This document shows, piece after piece, positions 40,740-60,726 of a DNA stretch of 64,000 nucleotides (within the stretch, counting starts at the first letter, position 1; each line of letters begins with the position of its first letter). The position numbers and the translations under genes were made by a program. Source of the DNA: Maricaulis salignorans (GTDB lineage: Bacteria; Pseudomonadota; Alphaproteobacteria; Caulobacterales; Maricaulaceae); contig NZ_FNHG01000013.1 in assembly GCF_900103475.1 (NCBI RefSeq), forward strand, positions 1-64,000, given 5' to 3'. The notes under the pieces were generated by a model. That model worked only from the letters and a program-made list of their open reading frames with translations, was not told the origin of the DNA and did no database searches.

Positions 40740-42227
40740 ATGAAATCCTTTCTGAAGCTTGGCGGCGGCGATGCCCGCGCCACACTCGAAGCACTGGGCC
40801 GGTCGCTGGCCATCATCGAGTTCAAACCAGACGGCACCATTCTCACCGCCAATGCCAATTTTCTCGACGCCATGGGATATGGCCTCGCGGAGATCGCCGG
40901 CCGGCATCACAGTCTGTTTGTCGACCCGGCGGAGCGGGAATCCGACGCCTACCGCCAGTTCTGGGCCAAGCTGGGAAAAGGTGAGTTCAACGCCGCCGAA
41001 TTCAGGCGTGTCGCCAAGGGCGGCAGGGAAATCTGGATCCAGGCCAGCTATAATCCCATCCTCGACGGGTCGGGAAATGTCTGCAAGGTCGTCAAATTCG
41101 CCACCGACATCACCCAGCAAAAGCTCAACGCGGCCCATGCCCAGGGGCAGATCGACGCGATCCATAGCTCCCAGGCGGTGATCGAATTCGAACTCGATGG
41201 CACCGTTCTGACCGCCAATGAAAACTTCCTCGGCGCGCTCGGCTATCGTCTCGATGAGATCGCCGGCAAGCATCATTCGATGTTTGTCCCGGTCAGCGAG
41301 CGTGACAGCGACGCCTATCGCAAATTCTGGGACGAGCTGCGCGCCGGCCAGTTCCAGTCCGCCGAATTCCTGCGCATCGGCAAGGGCGGCCGCGAAGTGT
41401 GGATCCAGGCGACCTATAATCCGATCCGCGACATGAATGGCAATATCTACCGCGTCATCAAGTTTGCTACCGACATCACCGCGCAGGTCGAGTTGCGCCA
41501 CCAACGGGCCGCGGCGCAGAAAAGCATTGATACCGACCTCGATGGCATTGCGGTCAGCGTTACGCAAACCGCCGGCCAGGCGACCACGGTGTCATCCACG
41601 TCGGAACAAACCTCCGCTGCCGTCCAGTCCATCGCGGCCGGGATCGAGGAAATGGCCGCTTCGGCCAATGAGATCGGCAGCCAGCTGGTTCGTGCCACCG
41701 AGATCACACGCAATGCCGTCAACATGGCCACGCAAACCAGCGATGTCATGGGCGGCCTGGCGGAGTCAGCGGCCCGCATCAATGAAGTCATATCCCTGAT
41801 CAATGACATCTCGGAGCAGACTAATCTGCTCGCCCTCAACGCCACGATCGAAGCGGCCCGCGCCGGTGAAGCGGGCAAGGGGTTTGCGGTAGTCGCCTCG
41901 GAAGTGAAAGGCCTGGCCAATCAGACCGCCAAGGCCACTGACGGGATCGCCAGCCAGATCGCCCATGTCCAGAAAGCGACCAATGACGCGGTCGACGCCA
42001 TCGCCTCGATCAGCAAGACCATCGCCGAGATCGACGAAGTCGCGTCCTCGGTGGCCAGCGCCGTCGAGGAGCAATCCTGCGTCACCCGGGAAATCTCCGG
42101 CAATATGCAGGAAGTCGCGGCCGGCGTTGATGCGATTACCTCGGGGATCCGCGAAATCGCCAATGCCAGCCAGAGCATCGACACGGCAACCAAGAATGTG
42201 CGCCAGGCCTCGCAGGCCATGGGCTGA
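40740..42227 (+). CDS. Soluble methyl-accepting chemotaxis protein with two PAS domains
   Basis: A 495-residue chemoreceptor with no transmembrane segment. PAS1 (about 17-130) and PAS2 (about 139-252) are near-duplicates, both of the '[24 protein letters not shown]' type used by haem- or flavin-binding PAS domains. A signalling domain follows with the hairpin tip [20 protein letters not shown]. It should signal from the cytoplasm to CheA through CheW. ATG 40740 has GGGGAA 8 nt upstream. No other che genes are near. Confidence 0.95.
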
Positions 42228-43400: not shown

Positions 43401-43925
43401 GGCAGGAACCTTTGAGTGAAGCGGCACAGTGCACCAGTGCGCGGCGGGCCTCAAGGCGGGTGGGCGCGAGCGGCCCGATTCACGGGCGCGGCGCTTCGTC
43501 GCCCCGGGTGCGGCATCGCCACTCCATGAGAAGACCTCATATTGAGGCCTGCCCGGCCGTAGCCGAGGGCTGGAGCGCAGCCCTCCTGCGCCAAGGCTTC
43601 GGACGGCACCTCTTCGCCCCAGGTGCGCGCTGCGGGTGGCCTGCCACCCGAAGCCCGCAGGGCGGACAAAAGCAGGCATGCGGCGAAAAGAAAAAGAGCT
43701 TGGGTTTGATGTCGAGCGCGGCCCTCCTTCGCCCCAGGTGCGCGCTGCGGGTGGCCTGCCACCCGAAGCCCGCAGGGCGGGCATGAGCAAACTTGCGGCG
43801 AAAAGAAAAGAGCTTGGGTTTGATCTCGAGCGCGGCCCGCCTGCGCCAAAGGCTTCGGAGGGCACCTCTTCGCCCCAGGTGCGCGCTGCGGGTGGCCTGC
43901 CACCCGAAGCCCGCAGGGCGAAGGG
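43401..43925. repeat. Repeat-rich gap containing a triplicated 52-bp module
   Basis: No gene is supported, although the repeats create long GC-driven open frames. Three identical 52-bp copies lie at 43613-43664, 43728-43779 and 43869-43920. Spacers share further modules: one with GAGCTTGGGTTTGAT (from about 43695 and 43810) and one with GCCAAGGCTTCGGA-type sequence (before copies 1 and 3). The last copy ends 5 bp from the tRNA-Leu 3' end. Confidence 0.85.
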
Positions 43926-55798: not shown

Positions 55799-57016
55799 AT
55801 GCACCACGATTATGTCACCCATCTGGAATGCTCCGAGACCGGCAAACACTATCCCAAGGACGAGCCGCACAATCTCTCCGAGGCCGGCAAGCCGCTGCTG
55901 GTGCGCTATGACCTGGCCAAGGCGAAGGGCGTGATTGATCGCGGTGCTATCTCGGCCCGCGGCGGCGGTTTCTGGAAATGGCGCGAGCTTCTGCCCGTCG
56001 CCGATGACAAGGATGTCTGCCGCCTCGGCGAGATCGACACCCCATTGATTGATGTCCCCGCTACGGCGAAAGCATCGGGCGCCACCGGGCGTGTGCGCGT
56101 CAAGGATGAGGGCCGTTTGCCGACGGGCAGTTTCAAGGCCCGCGGCCTCGCGCTCGCCGTTGCCATGGCCCATCATTTCGGCATCAAGCGCCTCGCCATG
56201 CCGACCAATGGCAATGCCGGCGCTGCGATGTCGGCCTATGCTAGCCGCCTGGGGATGGAGAGCTATGTCTTCGCGCCCGACGATACGCCGGAAGTCAATA
56301 TCCGCGAGATGGCGCTGCAGGGTGCGCATGTGTTTCGCGTCAACGGCTTCATCCATCATTGCGGCGCCCTGGTCGCCGCCGGCAAGGACAAGATGGGCTG
56401 GTTTGACCTCTCGACCCTGAAGGAGCCCTACCGGATCGAGGGCAAGAAAACGATGGGCCTCGAGCTCGCCCACCAGCTCGGCTGGCGCATGCCCGACGCG
56501 ATCTTCTATCCCACCGGCGGCGGCACCGGCCTGATCGGCATGTGGAAAGCCTTCGACGAGATGGAACGCTTGGGCTGGATCGGCAAACGCCGCCCGAAAA
56601 TGATCGCCGTCCAGGCCGAGGGCTGCGCCCCCATCGTGCGCGCCTGGGACAAGGGCGAACGCCATGCCGAGGAATGGCTCGACGCCACCACCGCCGCCAT
56701 GGGCATCCGGGTCCCCAAGGCGATCGGCGATTTCCTGATCATTGATGCCTGCAAGGAGAGCGAAGGCTTCGCCATCGCCGTCTCCGAGGCCTCTATCGAA
56801 GCTGCCCGGGTGCGCTGCGCCCGCGAGGACGGCCTCCTGCTCTGCCCGGAAGGCGCCGCGACCCTGGCCGCGATGGAAAAGGCGATGAATGACGGGCTGA
56901 TCGAGCGCGATGCCGAATGCGTGCTGTTCAATTGCGGCTCGGGTTTGAAGTATGCGATGCCGGATGGGTCGCGGGTGCTGGATCGGAATGCTGAAGTGGA
57001 TTGGGGGGCGATGTGA
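55799..57016 (+). CDS. thrC: Threonine synthase
   Basis: A 405-residue PLP enzyme (fold type II). It begins with a Cys-bearing N-terminal segment (LECSETGKHYPKDEPHNLSE). The Schiff-base Lys is in LPTGSFKARG near residue 116, the phosphate loop in PTGGGTGLIGMW, and the tail in LFNCGSGLKY. It resembles the short archaeal/plant-type threonine synthase rather than the long ThrC2 type, and related threonine-deaminase-like enzymes are an alternative. Its last 89 nt are overlapped by a convergent gene. Confidence 0.88.
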   Translation: MHHDYVTHLECSETGKHYPKDEPHNLSEAGKPLLVRYDLAKAKGVIDRGAISARGGGFWKWRELLPVADDKDVCRLGEIDTPLIDVPATAKASGATGRVRVKDEGRLPTGSFKARGLALAVAMAHHFGIKRLAMPTNGNAGAAMSAYASRLGMESYVFAPDDTPEVNIREMALQGAHVFRVNGFIHHCGALVAAGKDKMGWFDLSTLKEPYRIEGKKTMGLELAHQLGWRMPDAIFYPTGGGTGLIGMWKAFDEMERLGWIGKRRPKMIAVQAEGCAPIVRAWDKGERHAEEWLDATTAAMGIRVPKAIGDFLIIDACKESEGFAIAVSEASIEAARVRCAREDGLLLCPEGAATLAAMEKAMNDGLIERDAECVLFNCGSGLKYAMPDGSRVLDRNAEVDWGAM

Positions 57017-57860
57017 TGTAGGAATCATCTGCCGCGCACAGATAATCGCGGGGCGGAGCGCCGCCAGCAAAGCGATTTGCCCAGGTCAGGGTTTCCGAAA
57101 CTTGGCCCAGGTATTCGAAGCGAATCCGATCAGCCGACACATCGGCAAATCGGATGCAAAACCCCCAGAAGTCCAGCGCCTCTCCGAACAATGCGTGTTC
57201 AACGACAAGCTCCACTCCATCGTCGCCACGGGGATGCTCGCCTTCAAAATAATTCATGGTGAGAAGCAGTGCTGGTCCAGGAGTGATACTATCCCGGCTG
57301 GCATCGATGGCGTTGAGTTCGAACCGGACCCGGCCAAGCTCTTCACCCGACGATATGCGATAGGGGATTGGTACGGCCAAGGCTTGCGGGCCGAAGCCTG
57401 AATAGGTAAGCGATGAGCGAATAGCGAGCGTCGAAGCGCGCTCCAAAGCGAAGTCGAACGCACCGTCTTGATCGGCGTCGATCAGACAGGTCGCATCCGG
57501 CAAGCGTGAGCGCAGCTGTCCAAGTGCCACTCTACCGCAGTACACAATCCCGGGAATGTCTGGCGCTTCGCTCTGGTAGAGCAATCGCCCGGCGTGAGCG
57601 AGGCCCTGTCCGTCTGCTGTCTCGACTTCACTTCCCAGCTCGACATAGGAAGCATAGCGAGCGGACACAACAAGTATCGGGTCTCCCAACGCTGCGCTGG
57701 CGATGCCCGCGGAGACAGACACATTTTTGTCGACCAGCTGCGTCCACACTTCGACCCGGCGCAATTCGAGCCAATCGTCACTGGCGTACGCAGGCGAACA
57801 CCATATCGCCAGCGCGACGCAAGCGTTCAAGATGGAAATGATTGCCGAAACCCGTAGCAT
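56928..57860 (-). CDS. Secreted protein with a DxDxDG motif, unknown
   Basis: A 310-residue exported protein with signal peptide MLRVSAIISILNACVALAIW, cleaved after AYA near residue 26. Residues 128-133 form DADQDG, a calcium-binding DxDxDG loop followed by AFDFAL. Four or five Cys residues may form disulfides. The C-terminal 28 residues are read antisense through the end of thrC and look unconstrained. GC content is lower than in thrC. It resembles no family I recognise. GAGG precedes ATG 57860 by 8 nt. Confidence 0.75.
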   Translation of the reverse strand: MLRVSAIISILNACVALAIWCSPAYASDDWLELRRVEVWTQLVDKNVSVSAGIASAALGDPILVVSARYASYVELGSEVETADGQGLAHAGRLLYQSEAPDIPGIVYCGRVALGQLRSRLPDATCLIDADQDGAFDFALERASTLAIRSSLTYSGFGPQALAVPIPYRISSGEELGRVRFELNAIDASRDSITPGPALLLTMNYFEGEHPRGDDGVELVVEHALFGEALDFWGFCIRFADVSADRIRFEYLGQVSETLTWANRFAGGAPPRDYLCAADDSYITSPPNPLQHSDPAPATHPASHTSNPSRN

Positions 57861-57970: not shown

Positions 57971-58019
57971 CCCCACCTTCCCTCTCCGCGAGGAGAGGGT
58001 GCCCGAAGGGCGGGTGAGG
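57971..58019. repeat. REP-like palindromic element
   Basis: CCCTCTCC-GCGA-GGAGAGGG (57980-57999) is followed by GCCC-GAA-GGGC (58001-58011), flanked by complementary CCCCACC and GGGTGAGG. It is unlike the 154-bp units that follow, and of a kind widespread in proteobacterial intergenic DNA. Confidence 0.65.
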
Positions 58020-58072
58020 CGGGCCATGTGCACGGTGCAGGGCTGCCACAACACCGCTTATCACCAACCTCG

Positions 58073-58470
58073 CTTCGGCACATGCCGGGCGCCGCCACCT
58101 GAAATCACCGGAAAACCTGAGTCCTCCCAGGGACGCGTACCAGAGGTACACGTCCCTCTTCCGCAGTACGGCGCCACGCCTGAAGAGGGACAGGTACCTC
58201 TGGTACCTGTCCCAGGGAAAACCCGGCTTCGGTGGATGACGGGCGCCGCCGCCTGAAACCGCCGGAAAACCGGAGTCCGCCCCGGGACGCGTACCAGAGG
58301 TACACGTCCCTCATCCGCAATACCGCGCCTCACCTGAAGAGGGACTGGTACCTCTGGTACCTGTCCCAGGGAAAACCGGACTTCGGCACATGCCGCGCGC
58401 CGCCGCCTGAAACCGCCGGAAAACCTGAGTCCGCCCCGGGACGCGCACCAGAGGTACACGTCCCTCTTCA
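58073..58470. repeat. Array of 154-bp REP units, left of the RAYT gene
   Basis: Units begin at 58073, 58227 and 58381, a spacing of exactly 154 bp. Each has a hairpin A (58130-58156, 58284-58310, 58438-58464) with arms GGGACG-x-GTACC and GGTAC-x-CGTCCC, and a hairpin B of opposite orientation (58187-58213, 58341-58367) with 12-bp arms GGGACAGGTACC. The third unit is cut after hairpin A by the RAYT gene. Confidence 0.92.
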
Positions 58471-58998
58471 TGCGTATGGATCAATCGCGTGTAGATAACC
58501 CCGCCAGTCAGGGATGCGCGACAACATCGGCTCTACCCTGACCAGGGCATCGCTCTGACCGGCGAGATGCGCATGCACGCTCGACCATGGCCAGTCCTGC
58601 GCATGCGCGACCAGCCCGGCCCGAACCGGATTGAACTCGATATATCGGCAAACGGAATGAAGCCGCGTCTCATCCATCGGTGATGATTTGAACCGGCCTT
58701 GCCAGAGAATTCCGGCGCCGGCTCCAGTGGTGTTGAAATAGTGCGTATAGAGACGGTGTGCCCACGAAAGAGCCCGCGACAGGCCCGCCGGATCGTCCGG
58801 CACCAACACCAGATGGACGTGATTGGGCATCAGGCAATAAGCCCAACATCGCACCCGTTCGCGCTTGCAGGATTCCGTCAGCAGCTTGAGGTATTGCGCA
58901 TAATCGCCGTCGCTGAAGAAAACCTGCTGGCGTCGATTGCCCCGCTGCGTGACATGATGGGGTGCGCCGGGATGAATGATGCGGGCGGAGCGGGGCAT
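58468..58998 (-). CDS. REP-associated tyrosine transposase (RAYT)
   Basis: A 176-residue Y1_Tnp/IS200-like HUH transposase. It shows the N-terminal block HHVTQRGNRRQQVFF, the HUH metal motif H60-V-H62 in MPNHVHLVL and the catalytic Tyr119 in CRYIEFNPVRAGLV. RAYTs nick at REP hairpins and are thought to spread them. It is intact, and its stop lies 4 nt from hairpin A of the third REP unit. The single-copy domesticated transposase is embedded in its own likely substrate array. Confidence 0.95.
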   Translation of the reverse strand: MPRSARIIHPGAPHHVTQRGNRRQQVFFSDGDYAQYLKLLTESCKRERVRCWAYCLMPNHVHLVLVPDDPAGLSRALSWAHRLYTHYFNTTGAGAGILWQGRFKSSPMDETRLHSVCRYIEFNPVRAGLVAHAQDWPWSSVHAHLAGQSDALVRVEPMLSRIPDWRGYLHAIDPYA

Positions 58999-59424
58999 AA
59001 CGCAATTATAACGTGCATGCTTTCTTGTCGCAATATCTTATCCGAAAGCGGGGAGAACCTGTCCCCGGGACAACCGTACTTCGGCACATGCCGAGCTCCG
59101 CCGCCTGTAATCACCGGAAAACCGGATCCTCCCTGGGACGCGTACCAGAGGTACACGTCCCTCACGGCCAACGCTGCGCAAGAATGAAGAGGGACAGGTA
59201 CCTCTGGTACCTGTCCTCTGGGGAAGCCCGGCTGCGATCGATGGCGGGCCCAAGCGCCCGAGATAGCCGGAAAAGTGAGTCCTCCCAGGGACGCGTACCA
59301 AAGGTACACGTCCCTCCCCGTCAACGTGGCGCGAGCATGAAGAGGTACACGCCCCTCCCCTTGACCTTTTAGCGCCCTTGCCGCATCTCCCGCGCTTGCT
59401 CACAACGCGCCGACGGAGCCGCCC
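58999..59424. repeat. REP units right of the RAYT gene
   Basis: After 80 bp a partial hairpin-B right arm (CCTGTCCCCGGGAC near 59058) restores the unit register. A full unit runs from 59079 (hairpin A 59135-59161, hairpin B 59191-59217) and another starts at 59232 (hairpin A 59288-59314, one base changed) and ends with a truncated half-hairpin near 59338. The purB start follows. Confidence 0.88.
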
Positions 59425-60726
59425 ATGATCCCCCGCTATACCCGCCCGCAAATGGCCGCCATCTGGTCGGACCAGAACAAGTACAAGATCTGGTATCTGA
59501 TCGAGGCGCATGCGACCGAGAAGCTGGCGGAACTGGGTGTGGTGCCGCAATCGGCTGTGGAGGCGGTGTGGTCGGCCAAGGATGTTGAATTTGATGTCGA
59601 GCGGATCAATGAGATCGAGGCCGAGGTCAAACATGATGTCATCGCCTTTTTGACCCATCTGGGCGAGCATGTCGGCGAGCAGAGCCGGTTTGTGCATCAG
59701 GGCCTGACCTCGTCGGACGTGCTCGACACCTGCCTCGCCGTTCAAATGCGCGACAGTGCCGATCTTCTCCTGCAGGGCATGGACCGGGTGCTCGCGGCGC
59801 TGAAGACGCGGGCAATGGAGCATAAATTCACCGTCTGTATCGGCCGCTCGCATGGCATCCATGCCGAGCCGACGACGATGGGGCTGAAATTCGCGCGCTT
59901 CTATGCCGAGTTCAAACGCAATCGCGCCCGCCTCGTGGCCGCCCGCGACGAGATCGCCACCTGCGCCATTTCCGGCGCCATCGGCACTTTCGCCAATATC
60001 GACCCGCGCGTTGAGGACCATGTCGCGAGCGCGATGGGCCTCGCCGTCGAGCCGATCTCGACCCAGGTCATCCCGCGCGACCGTCATGCCAATTATTTCG
60101 CCGTGCTCGGCCTGATCGCCTCGGCAATCGAGAATCTCGCCGTTGAAGTGCGCCATTTGCAGCGTTCCGAAGTGCGCGAGGCGCAGGAATTCTTCTCCAA
60201 GGGACAAAAAGGTTCCTCGGCCATGCCGCACAAGCGCAATCCGATCCTGACCGAAAACCTCACCGGGCTGGCGCGCCTGGTGCGCTCGGCCGTCACCCCG
60301 GCGATGGAAAATGTCGCGCTCTGGCATGAACGCGATATCTCCCACTCCTCCGTTGAGCGCGGTATCGGGCCGGATGCCAATGGCCATCTCGACTTTGCGC
60401 TGCAGCGCTGTGCCGGCATGGTTGAAGGCCTGATCGTGCACGCCGATCGCTGCCAGGAAAATCTCGACGCCCAGGGCGGTATCCATAACTCCCAGCGCCT
60501 GCTTCTGGCTCTGACCCAGGCCGGCGTTTCGCGCGAGGACAGCTATCGCCTGGTCCAGCGCAATGCGATGAAAACCTGGGATGAGGGCGGCCAGCTGGTC
60601 GATCACCTCAAGGCCGATCCCGAGGTCACCGCCCATATGAGCAATGCGGCGATCGAAGCCTGTTTCGACGAGGCCTATCACCTCAAACATGTCGACACGA
60701 TCTTTACGCGAGTGTTTGCGGATTAA
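59425..60726 (+). CDS. purB: Adenylosuccinate lyase
   Basis: A 433-residue fumarase/aspartase-superfamily enzyme acting twice in purine synthesis: it splits SAICAR to AICAR and adenylosuccinate to AMP, releasing fumarate. Conserved blocks are TSSDVLDTCLA, GRSHGIHAEPTTMGLKF and the signature SSAMPHKRNP near residue 266. ATG 59425 begins MIPRYTRPQMAAIW, typical of the family. It lies 2 kb upstream of purC-purS-purQ. Confidence 0.97.
   Translation: MIPRYTRPQMAAIWSDQNKYKIWYLIEAHATEKLAELGVVPQSAVEAVWSAKDVEFDVERINEIEAEVKHDVIAFLTHLGEHVGEQSRFVHQGLTSSDVLDTCLAVQMRDSADLLLQGMDRVLAALKTRAMEHKFTVCIGRSHGIHAEPTTMGLKFARFYAEFKRNRARLVAARDEIATCAISGAIGTFANIDPRVEDHVASAMGLAVEPISTQVIPRDRHANYFAVLGLIASAIENLAVEVRHLQRSEVREAQEFFSKGQKGSSAMPHKRNPILTENLTGLARLVRSAVTPAMENVALWHERDISHSSVERGIGPDANGHLDFALQRCAGMVEGLIVHADRCQENLDAQGGIHNSQRLLLALTQAGVSREDSYRLVQRNAMKTWDEGGQLVDHLKADPEVTAHMSNAAIEACFDEAYHLKHVDTIFTRVFAD

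Follow-up and report, generated by a model that had tools for sequence, protein, structure and literature searches.

The locus and its repeat unit

The window, by which we mean the whole 64,000-nucleotide stretch of DNA that was analyzed, is from contig 33 of a 3.12-Mb, 37-contig draft genome (G000) of the genus Maricaulis. It contains a Y1 (HuH) REP-type transposase gene, here called the RAYT, with repeats of 154 or 153 bp on both sides. The array and the gene lie between purB and a gene that we take to be threonine-synthase-like (thrC-like) (Table 1). A 310-aa open reading frame on the minus strand between the thrC-like gene and the array (56928-57860) matched nothing in Pfam or NCBIfam at E 0.001.

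Table 1. Features of the locus and their coordinates in the window.
Feature	Coordinates	Strand	Remarks
thrC-like gene (presumed)	55799..57016	+	conserved left-hand landmark
Array unit 1, left end: truncated REPIN	58066..58161	+	spacer and hairpin A (58130-58156); hairpin B missing
Head-to-head junction between palindromes	58157..58186	.	30 nt; second junction at 58311-58340
REPIN 2	58182..58315	+	hairpin B (58187-58213), 70-nt spacer, hairpin A (58284-58310), heads outward
REPIN 3	58336..58467	+	hairpin B (58341-58367), 70-nt spacer, hairpin A (58438-58464)
Y1 HuH transposase (RAYT/TIRYT-like)	58468..58998	-	176 aa; lacks the C-terminal tail that most relatives have
Degenerate half palindrome GGGGACAGGTTCTCCCC	59050..59066	-	upstream of RAYT; has GGGGWSAS
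Right REPIN 1	59079..59166	+	spacer and hairpin A (59135-59161); hairpin B would be the degenerate half palindrome 59050-59066
Right REPIN 2	59186..59318	+	hairpin B (59191-59217), spacer, hairpin A (59288-59314)
Half A-type palindrome	59341..59357	+	directly before CTTGACC of purB
purB (adenylosuccinate lyase)	59425..60726	+	conserved right-hand landmark

The preliminary description of this DNA had reported a register of 154 bp to the left of the RAYT that resumes to its right with 153 bp, and we found both. The left-hand direct repeats are 58066-58219, 58220-58373 (88% identity) and 58374-58527, spaced 154 and 154 bp; the third is only 65% identical over its whole length because the RAYT cuts into it. 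To the right of the gene, direct repeats at 59088-59204 and 59241-59357 are spaced 153 bp. A search of the genome with the first unit recovered 59079-59216 at 86% and 58381-58469 at 92%.

Each repeat of the array consists of a REPIN, in which two inverted 27-nt palindromes point their heads outward around a 70-nt spacer, and a junction of 29-30 nt. The 154-bp period is that of a long-spacer REPIN and its junction, because neighboring heads-out pairs with 70-nt spacers adjoin with their heads facing across 29-30 nt. Read from the left, the order of palindromes is A, B, A, B, A up to the RAYT and then, on its 5' side, degenerate half, A, B, A, half A. Hairpin A (58130-58156), when reverse-complemented, gives GGGACGTGTACCTCTGGTACGCGTCCC, a palindrome of one type with hairpin B, in agreement with the initial view of A and B as inverted versions of one sequence. 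Single hairpins gave fold z scores of -5.4 and -5.9, and the 134-nt stretch from B through the 70-nt spacer to A folds as one long hairpin (z of -6.1; 0 of 200 shuffles as good). The junction sequences are alike within each side of the RAYT, as judged by eye.

The gene had been described as sitting precisely between hairpin A of unit 3 and the right arm of a hairpin B. The first border holds, with hairpin A of REPIN 3 ending 3 nt from the RAYT stop codon (58468-58470), but the supposed right arm is degenerate. It retains about 9-10 matching bases of hairpin B, the stretch around it folds little better than shuffles (z of -1.2; 22 of 200 as good), and it is a remnant of either hairpin B or a terminal repeat. 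The locus had also been called a clean snapshot of array growth. The unit cores are just 70-90% identical to one another in pairwise comparisons, so the array is not fresh and that label does not hold.

Other repeats in the window differ from the array units. The range first given for the locus starts at 57971; however, the stretch at about 57971-58030 is a separate GAGAGG-type repeat (of the GAGAGGGTGCCCGAAGGGCGGGTGAGG type) outside the array. Several relatives have stretches like it, as judged by eye, in the corresponding intergenic slot, L062 and L072 showing this best. Elsewhere in the window, there are direct duplications at 43570-43920 (two 95-nt copies, 95% identical and 255 nt from each other) and at 40815-41480 (300 nt at 73%).

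The palindrome family and the transposase

The palindromes of the array belong to a small dispersed family. Allowing at most 2 mismatches, this genome has 20 sites, of which 8 belong to the array and 12 lie on contigs C10, C13, C20, C24, C29 and C37. The backward control gave 0 sites in this genome and one per strand in each of two genomes. Further copies, for which the preliminary description proposed a search, exist for the hairpins but not for the array: no 154-bp array was found in the 37-contig draft beyond the window, and one isolated long-spacer copy, with a degenerate B, is at C29:320313-320400. Within the genus, 11 of 19 genomes carry the family (at most 2 mismatches); outside this genome, the count per genome is 0 to 9, with never more than 3 sites close together in the listed places. 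Several genus genomes have palindrome sites with no transposase match at E 0.001. Among these are G013 (8 sites) and G007 (9 sites; genome 69% complete).

The dispersed pairs follow an orientation rule. A scan of 34 loci gave 15 pairs: the heads clearly point outward in 12, one side is undecided in 3, and no pair is reversed; the order is B then A, with AGGGAC heads outward and tails facing. Their spacers are 20-24, 41-48 or, once, 96 nt. Head-to-head pairs occurred among these 34 loci only at the array junctions, and single REPs of the family occur too. The GT[AG]G tag was absent, by eye, from the feet of the 8 window palindromes and of the own-genome copies inspected.

The window protein is a Y1 transposase. 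It scored 46.2 bits against Pfam Y1_Tnp (cut-off 23; 5.9e-12), has the HuH and Y---NP motifs as HVH and YIEFNP (by eye) and matched the structure of E. coli TnpAREP (PDB 4er8) at E 4.3e-7. These matches, together with the dispersal of the hairpins, bear out the original identification of a REP-type transposase adjoining its own REP family. Its score of 75.8 bits against NCBIfam REP_Tyr_transpos (NF047646) is below the curated cut-off of 80, a value reached in none of the 19 genus genomes and in just 1 of 14 control genomes.

In the alignment to 4er8, W94 and Q95 are kept, and E100, H101 and R104 are replaced by S105, S106 and D109. The sections of PMC6006769 that we consulted link W94, Q95 and R104 to subclasses with GTAG-tagged REPs and give E100 (or D), H101 (or R) and R104 as the residues that read the tag. 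The window transposase thus differs from GTAG-type REPtrons (subclasses 2.2, 2.4, 2.5 and 2.7) in both tag and tag-reading residues. Since the palindromes lack the tag and the residues that would read it are changed, protein and repeat agree. We file the protein as a class-2 Y1 transposase that probably works like a RAYT, neither a GTAG-type RAYT nor a proven member of subclass 2.1. Among the three Maricaulis orthologues, dN/dS (NG86) was 0.06, 0.08 and 0.11 in the three pairs, indicating that the transposase is kept by selection; it has the look of a domesticated bacterial transposase gene.

The Maricaulis orthologues are shorter than most of their relatives. From 58 loci, 36 entered the comparison of flanks, 40 the comparison of tails, and 34, plus 9 from whole genomes (43 in all), the analysis of gene ends. 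The last left out L082 (the same gene as L044), L094 (broken frame), and loci that were fragmentary, lay too close to the end of a contig, or had not been selected. We scored a tail when our motif was present and the protein had 212 aa or more, and a hairpin by arms of at least 9, a loop of 3-8 and a position within 150 nt. A C-terminal tail of about 50 aa was present at 37 of the 43 loci. By this rule, all three Maricaulis orthologues lack it (176-177 aa), as do L107 (200 aa), L105 (220 aa, its end unrecognized by the motif) and L024 (210 aa). None of the 37 tail-bearing loci had a hairpin on both sides and 5 had one on one side (L056, L057, L091, L104 and L113). By the same test, hairpins stand on both sides of the gene in the Maricaulis genomes G011 and G009, and only downstream of the window gene. 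The motif GGGGWSAS is upstream only of the window gene and on both sides at 14 of 43 loci. An element GGGGACA[CG] is common to both flanks at 12 of 36 loci; at 15 of 36, nothing detectable is shared. Tandem duplications with a period of 60-300 surround the relatives at 3 of 36 loci (L094, L106 and L114).

The genome encodes a second Y1 transposase, L024 (G000:C9:90100-90609), 51% identical to the window protein. Only the first part of its tail is kept: an imperfect hairpin, which belongs to a dispersed family other than that of the array, shortens it and provides the last codons, with a stop just behind. We counted 27 matches to the region of this hairpin, spread over about 13 places, of which two adjoin L024 itself. 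This parallel is the main reason for considering that a transposase flanked by terminal inverted repeats (TIRs) turned into a REP/REPIN system: the tail would have been lost, the terminal repeats would have become near-perfect palindromes without GTAG, and a small population of REPINs would have followed. In the Maricaulis orthologues, the tail would have been lost near the point where the palindrome now stands, and loss of the tail and formation of the REP may have been coupled. L056, of the same order, encodes a 233-aa protein with a long tail and has a strong 16-bp hairpin downstream and an imperfect one upstream (by eye), which counts against a strict link between the two. We regard this conversion as possible and rather doubtful.

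Age of the gene and growth of the array

The slot of the gene is shared with two sister species. A transposase match of some kind was found in 12 of the 41 genomes searched, including this one. Orthologues at 77% and 73% identity occupy the same slot in the same orientation in G011 (Maricaulis alexandrii) and G009, where the order is thrC-like gene, REP pair (3' side), RAYT, one REP (5' side), purB. There is no array in either slot, and none at 13 further loci of the genus that were read. The gene is present within 1.5 kb before purB in 3 of the 16 genus genomes with a purB orthologue. In the three carriers, the distance from the end of the outer REP or half REP to the conserved CTTGACC is 4 to 14 nt (counted by eye). 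In the window, this outer element is the half palindrome 59341-59357, probably a remnant of the single REP found at that place in the two sisters. It resembles their purB-side REP by eye, which puts the array between landmarks that are old. Because two sisters hold the orthologue in the same slot without an array, the gene is most likely the older of the two. Most likely, then, the RAYT would be the older resident, with REPINs accumulating around it in the lineage of the window.

How the gene came to its present distribution is less simple. In a purB tree of 16 species, with one genome per species compared, the three RAYT carriers do not form one clade. Their distribution takes 3 changes, and the starred branches force 3; among 200 bootstrap trees, 0% gave a single change. 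There were therefore either several losses or more than one gain, and a single insertion needs several losses. We favor losses because the slot is shared. Independent gains in the three carriers may have occurred, but their common slot argues against this, as does a REP lying 4-14 nt ahead of CTTGACC. The dS of the RAYT (1.25-2.38, near saturation) exceeds that of purB (0.44-0.61) and the thrC-like gene (0.61-0.67). A weaker codon bias could be the source of the high value, which calls for caution and does not favor simple vertical descent.

Some dispersed REPINs stand between duplicated flanks. There are five dispersed REPIN loci in this genome (C10:387, C10:56358, C13:1506, C20:87685 and one on C29), and two are bracketed by direct duplications of flanking DNA, on C13 (76 nt at 97%) and on C10 (30 nt at 87%). 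Of the window positions outside the array, 0.8% are bracketed likewise. At the DNA level, such duplications bracket a REP or REPIN at just 3 of 34 genus loci (L158, L159 and L166). L158 and L166 are the same place in two species, behind the gene that precedes the C10 REPIN, which we take to be thiC; this duplication is old and counts as one event. Behind thiC, a REPIN or single REP is present in 6 of the 14 genomes with a match (G000, G009, G013 with a single REP, G014 with a degenerate one seen by eye, G015 and G016), and a decayed second end of thiC follows the REPIN in G009, G015 and G016. The flank duplications fit growth by tandem duplication of a REPIN together with its flank, which we infer to have been the growth step of the array.

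Two further observations concern these loci. At L191, L193, L194 and L195, a REPIN follows directly after the thiC stop codon, and the DNA further downstream varies between species. At L159:1380-1667 (G000:C13), the REPIN lies between two copies (76 nt, 97%) of adjoining DNA that stands next to the start of a presumably DsbA-like gene. The protein beside this REPIN had no close orthologue in the genus for a comparison with an empty site, its other matches being 24-33% identical.

Based on these results, we believe, with a probability of roughly 0.68, that an old RAYT/TIRYT-like gene was resident in the slot and that REPINs later multiplied around it in the lineage of the window. The transposase, kept by selection and probably inherited vertically, would have held an old slot between the thrC-like gene and purB, and the palindromes that flank it would be members of the small REPIN population. 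The enzyme would most likely move REPINs in trans by cutting single-stranded hairpin DNA. REPINs with 70-nt spacers would have come to flank the gene on both sides in this lineage and would then have multiplied in place, mainly through tandem duplication of the REPIN and junction DNA. Since the gene is present once, tandem duplication would not by itself leave similar units to its left and right; an additional insertion, conversion or deletion would be required.

The RAYT might instead have placed REPIN after REPIN beside existing REPs, with no tandem duplication. This would account for the units on both sides of the gene, and REPs are described as concentrated near tnpA genes in Marinomonas (PMC8266576, from the part consulted). 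However, the 70-nt spacer recurs solely in the array and in one isolated copy, and tandem duplication is the simpler explanation for this as well as for the likeness of the junctions within each side (by eye). We therefore consider serial placement unlikely.

The preliminary description had the RAYT dropped as a transposon into an existing 154-bp array, where it would have replaced a 30-nt junction and part of a hairpin B. The gene does occupy the place of one head-to-head junction, and the pattern does resume behind it, but the two sister slots hold the orthologue without any array. Also, the genome has just two such genes, and since these are only 51% alike there is no sign of recent gene copying. 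We think it very improbable that the gene arrived in this way. Least probable of all is that the array is kept for a host function in the expression of purB or the RAYT (as a terminator, mRNA end or supercoiling site, with the link to the transposase secondary), because, although its hairpins are strong and it ends directly upstream of the conserved CTTGACC before purB, its units have diverged and it is missing from two sisters and 13 other genus loci.

Comparison with known systems

Among the closest known systems is that of Pseudomonas fluorescens SBW25. As described in the part of PMC3116915 that we consulted, SBW25 has ordered tandem repeats of REPINs and their flanks, singlet REPs regarded as remnants, and three RAYTs that each adjoin a cluster of REPINs. 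SBW25 and the window have in common that REPINs and their flanks are repeated in tandem near a RAYT, and because that paper describes both, neither the cluster nor its location beside a RAYT is new. The two differ in that the SBW25 clusters are beside the gene whereas the window units are on both sides in one register, and in scale: SBW25 has 1,053 extragenic REP sequences in three groups (PMC3116915), and the window genome has 20 sites of the window's family. A literature search for RAYTs in Maricaulis, judged by titles and the starts of abstracts, gave nothing on this subject.

With regard to array growth, the locus suggests that a resident gene can stay in place while REPINs gather around it, and the duplications of the type flank-REPIN-flank are a sign that REPINs were duplicated in tandem along with adjoining DNA. 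The comparison of tail-bearing relatives that have plain terminal repeats with the tail-less, REP-flanked Maricaulis orthologues makes it testable how REPs arise from transposon ends.

TIRYTs are described, in the consulted part of PMC3733652, as having terminal repeats with GGGGWSAS-like motifs, and some TIR families are self-complementary and form dimers or clusters. Many relatives of the window protein appear to share such GGGGWSAS-like terminal repeats with TIRtrons (PMC3733652). The Maricaulis orthologues differ from TIRYTs in having near-perfect palindromes near the gene, which are dispersed as REPINs, and in lacking the C-terminal tail. The protein resembles TnpAREP subclass 2.1 in its Y1/HuH core with Y---NP, in its differing GTAG-reading residues and in the C-terminal extension of its relatives; however, according to the consulted part of PMC6006769, no REP-like sequences were found in the vicinity of subclass 2.1 genes, and the window gene has plain REPs. 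With E. coli TnpAREP (PDB 4er8), it shares the homologous core, including W94 and Q95, and differs in having S, S and D for E100, H101 and R104 and in repeats without GT[AG]G. The locus illustrates well a type of element that is already known, although some of its details are out of the ordinary. The less usual ones are palindromes missing the GTAG/GTGG tag, with the matching residues changed, and orthologues missing the tail of about 50 aa.
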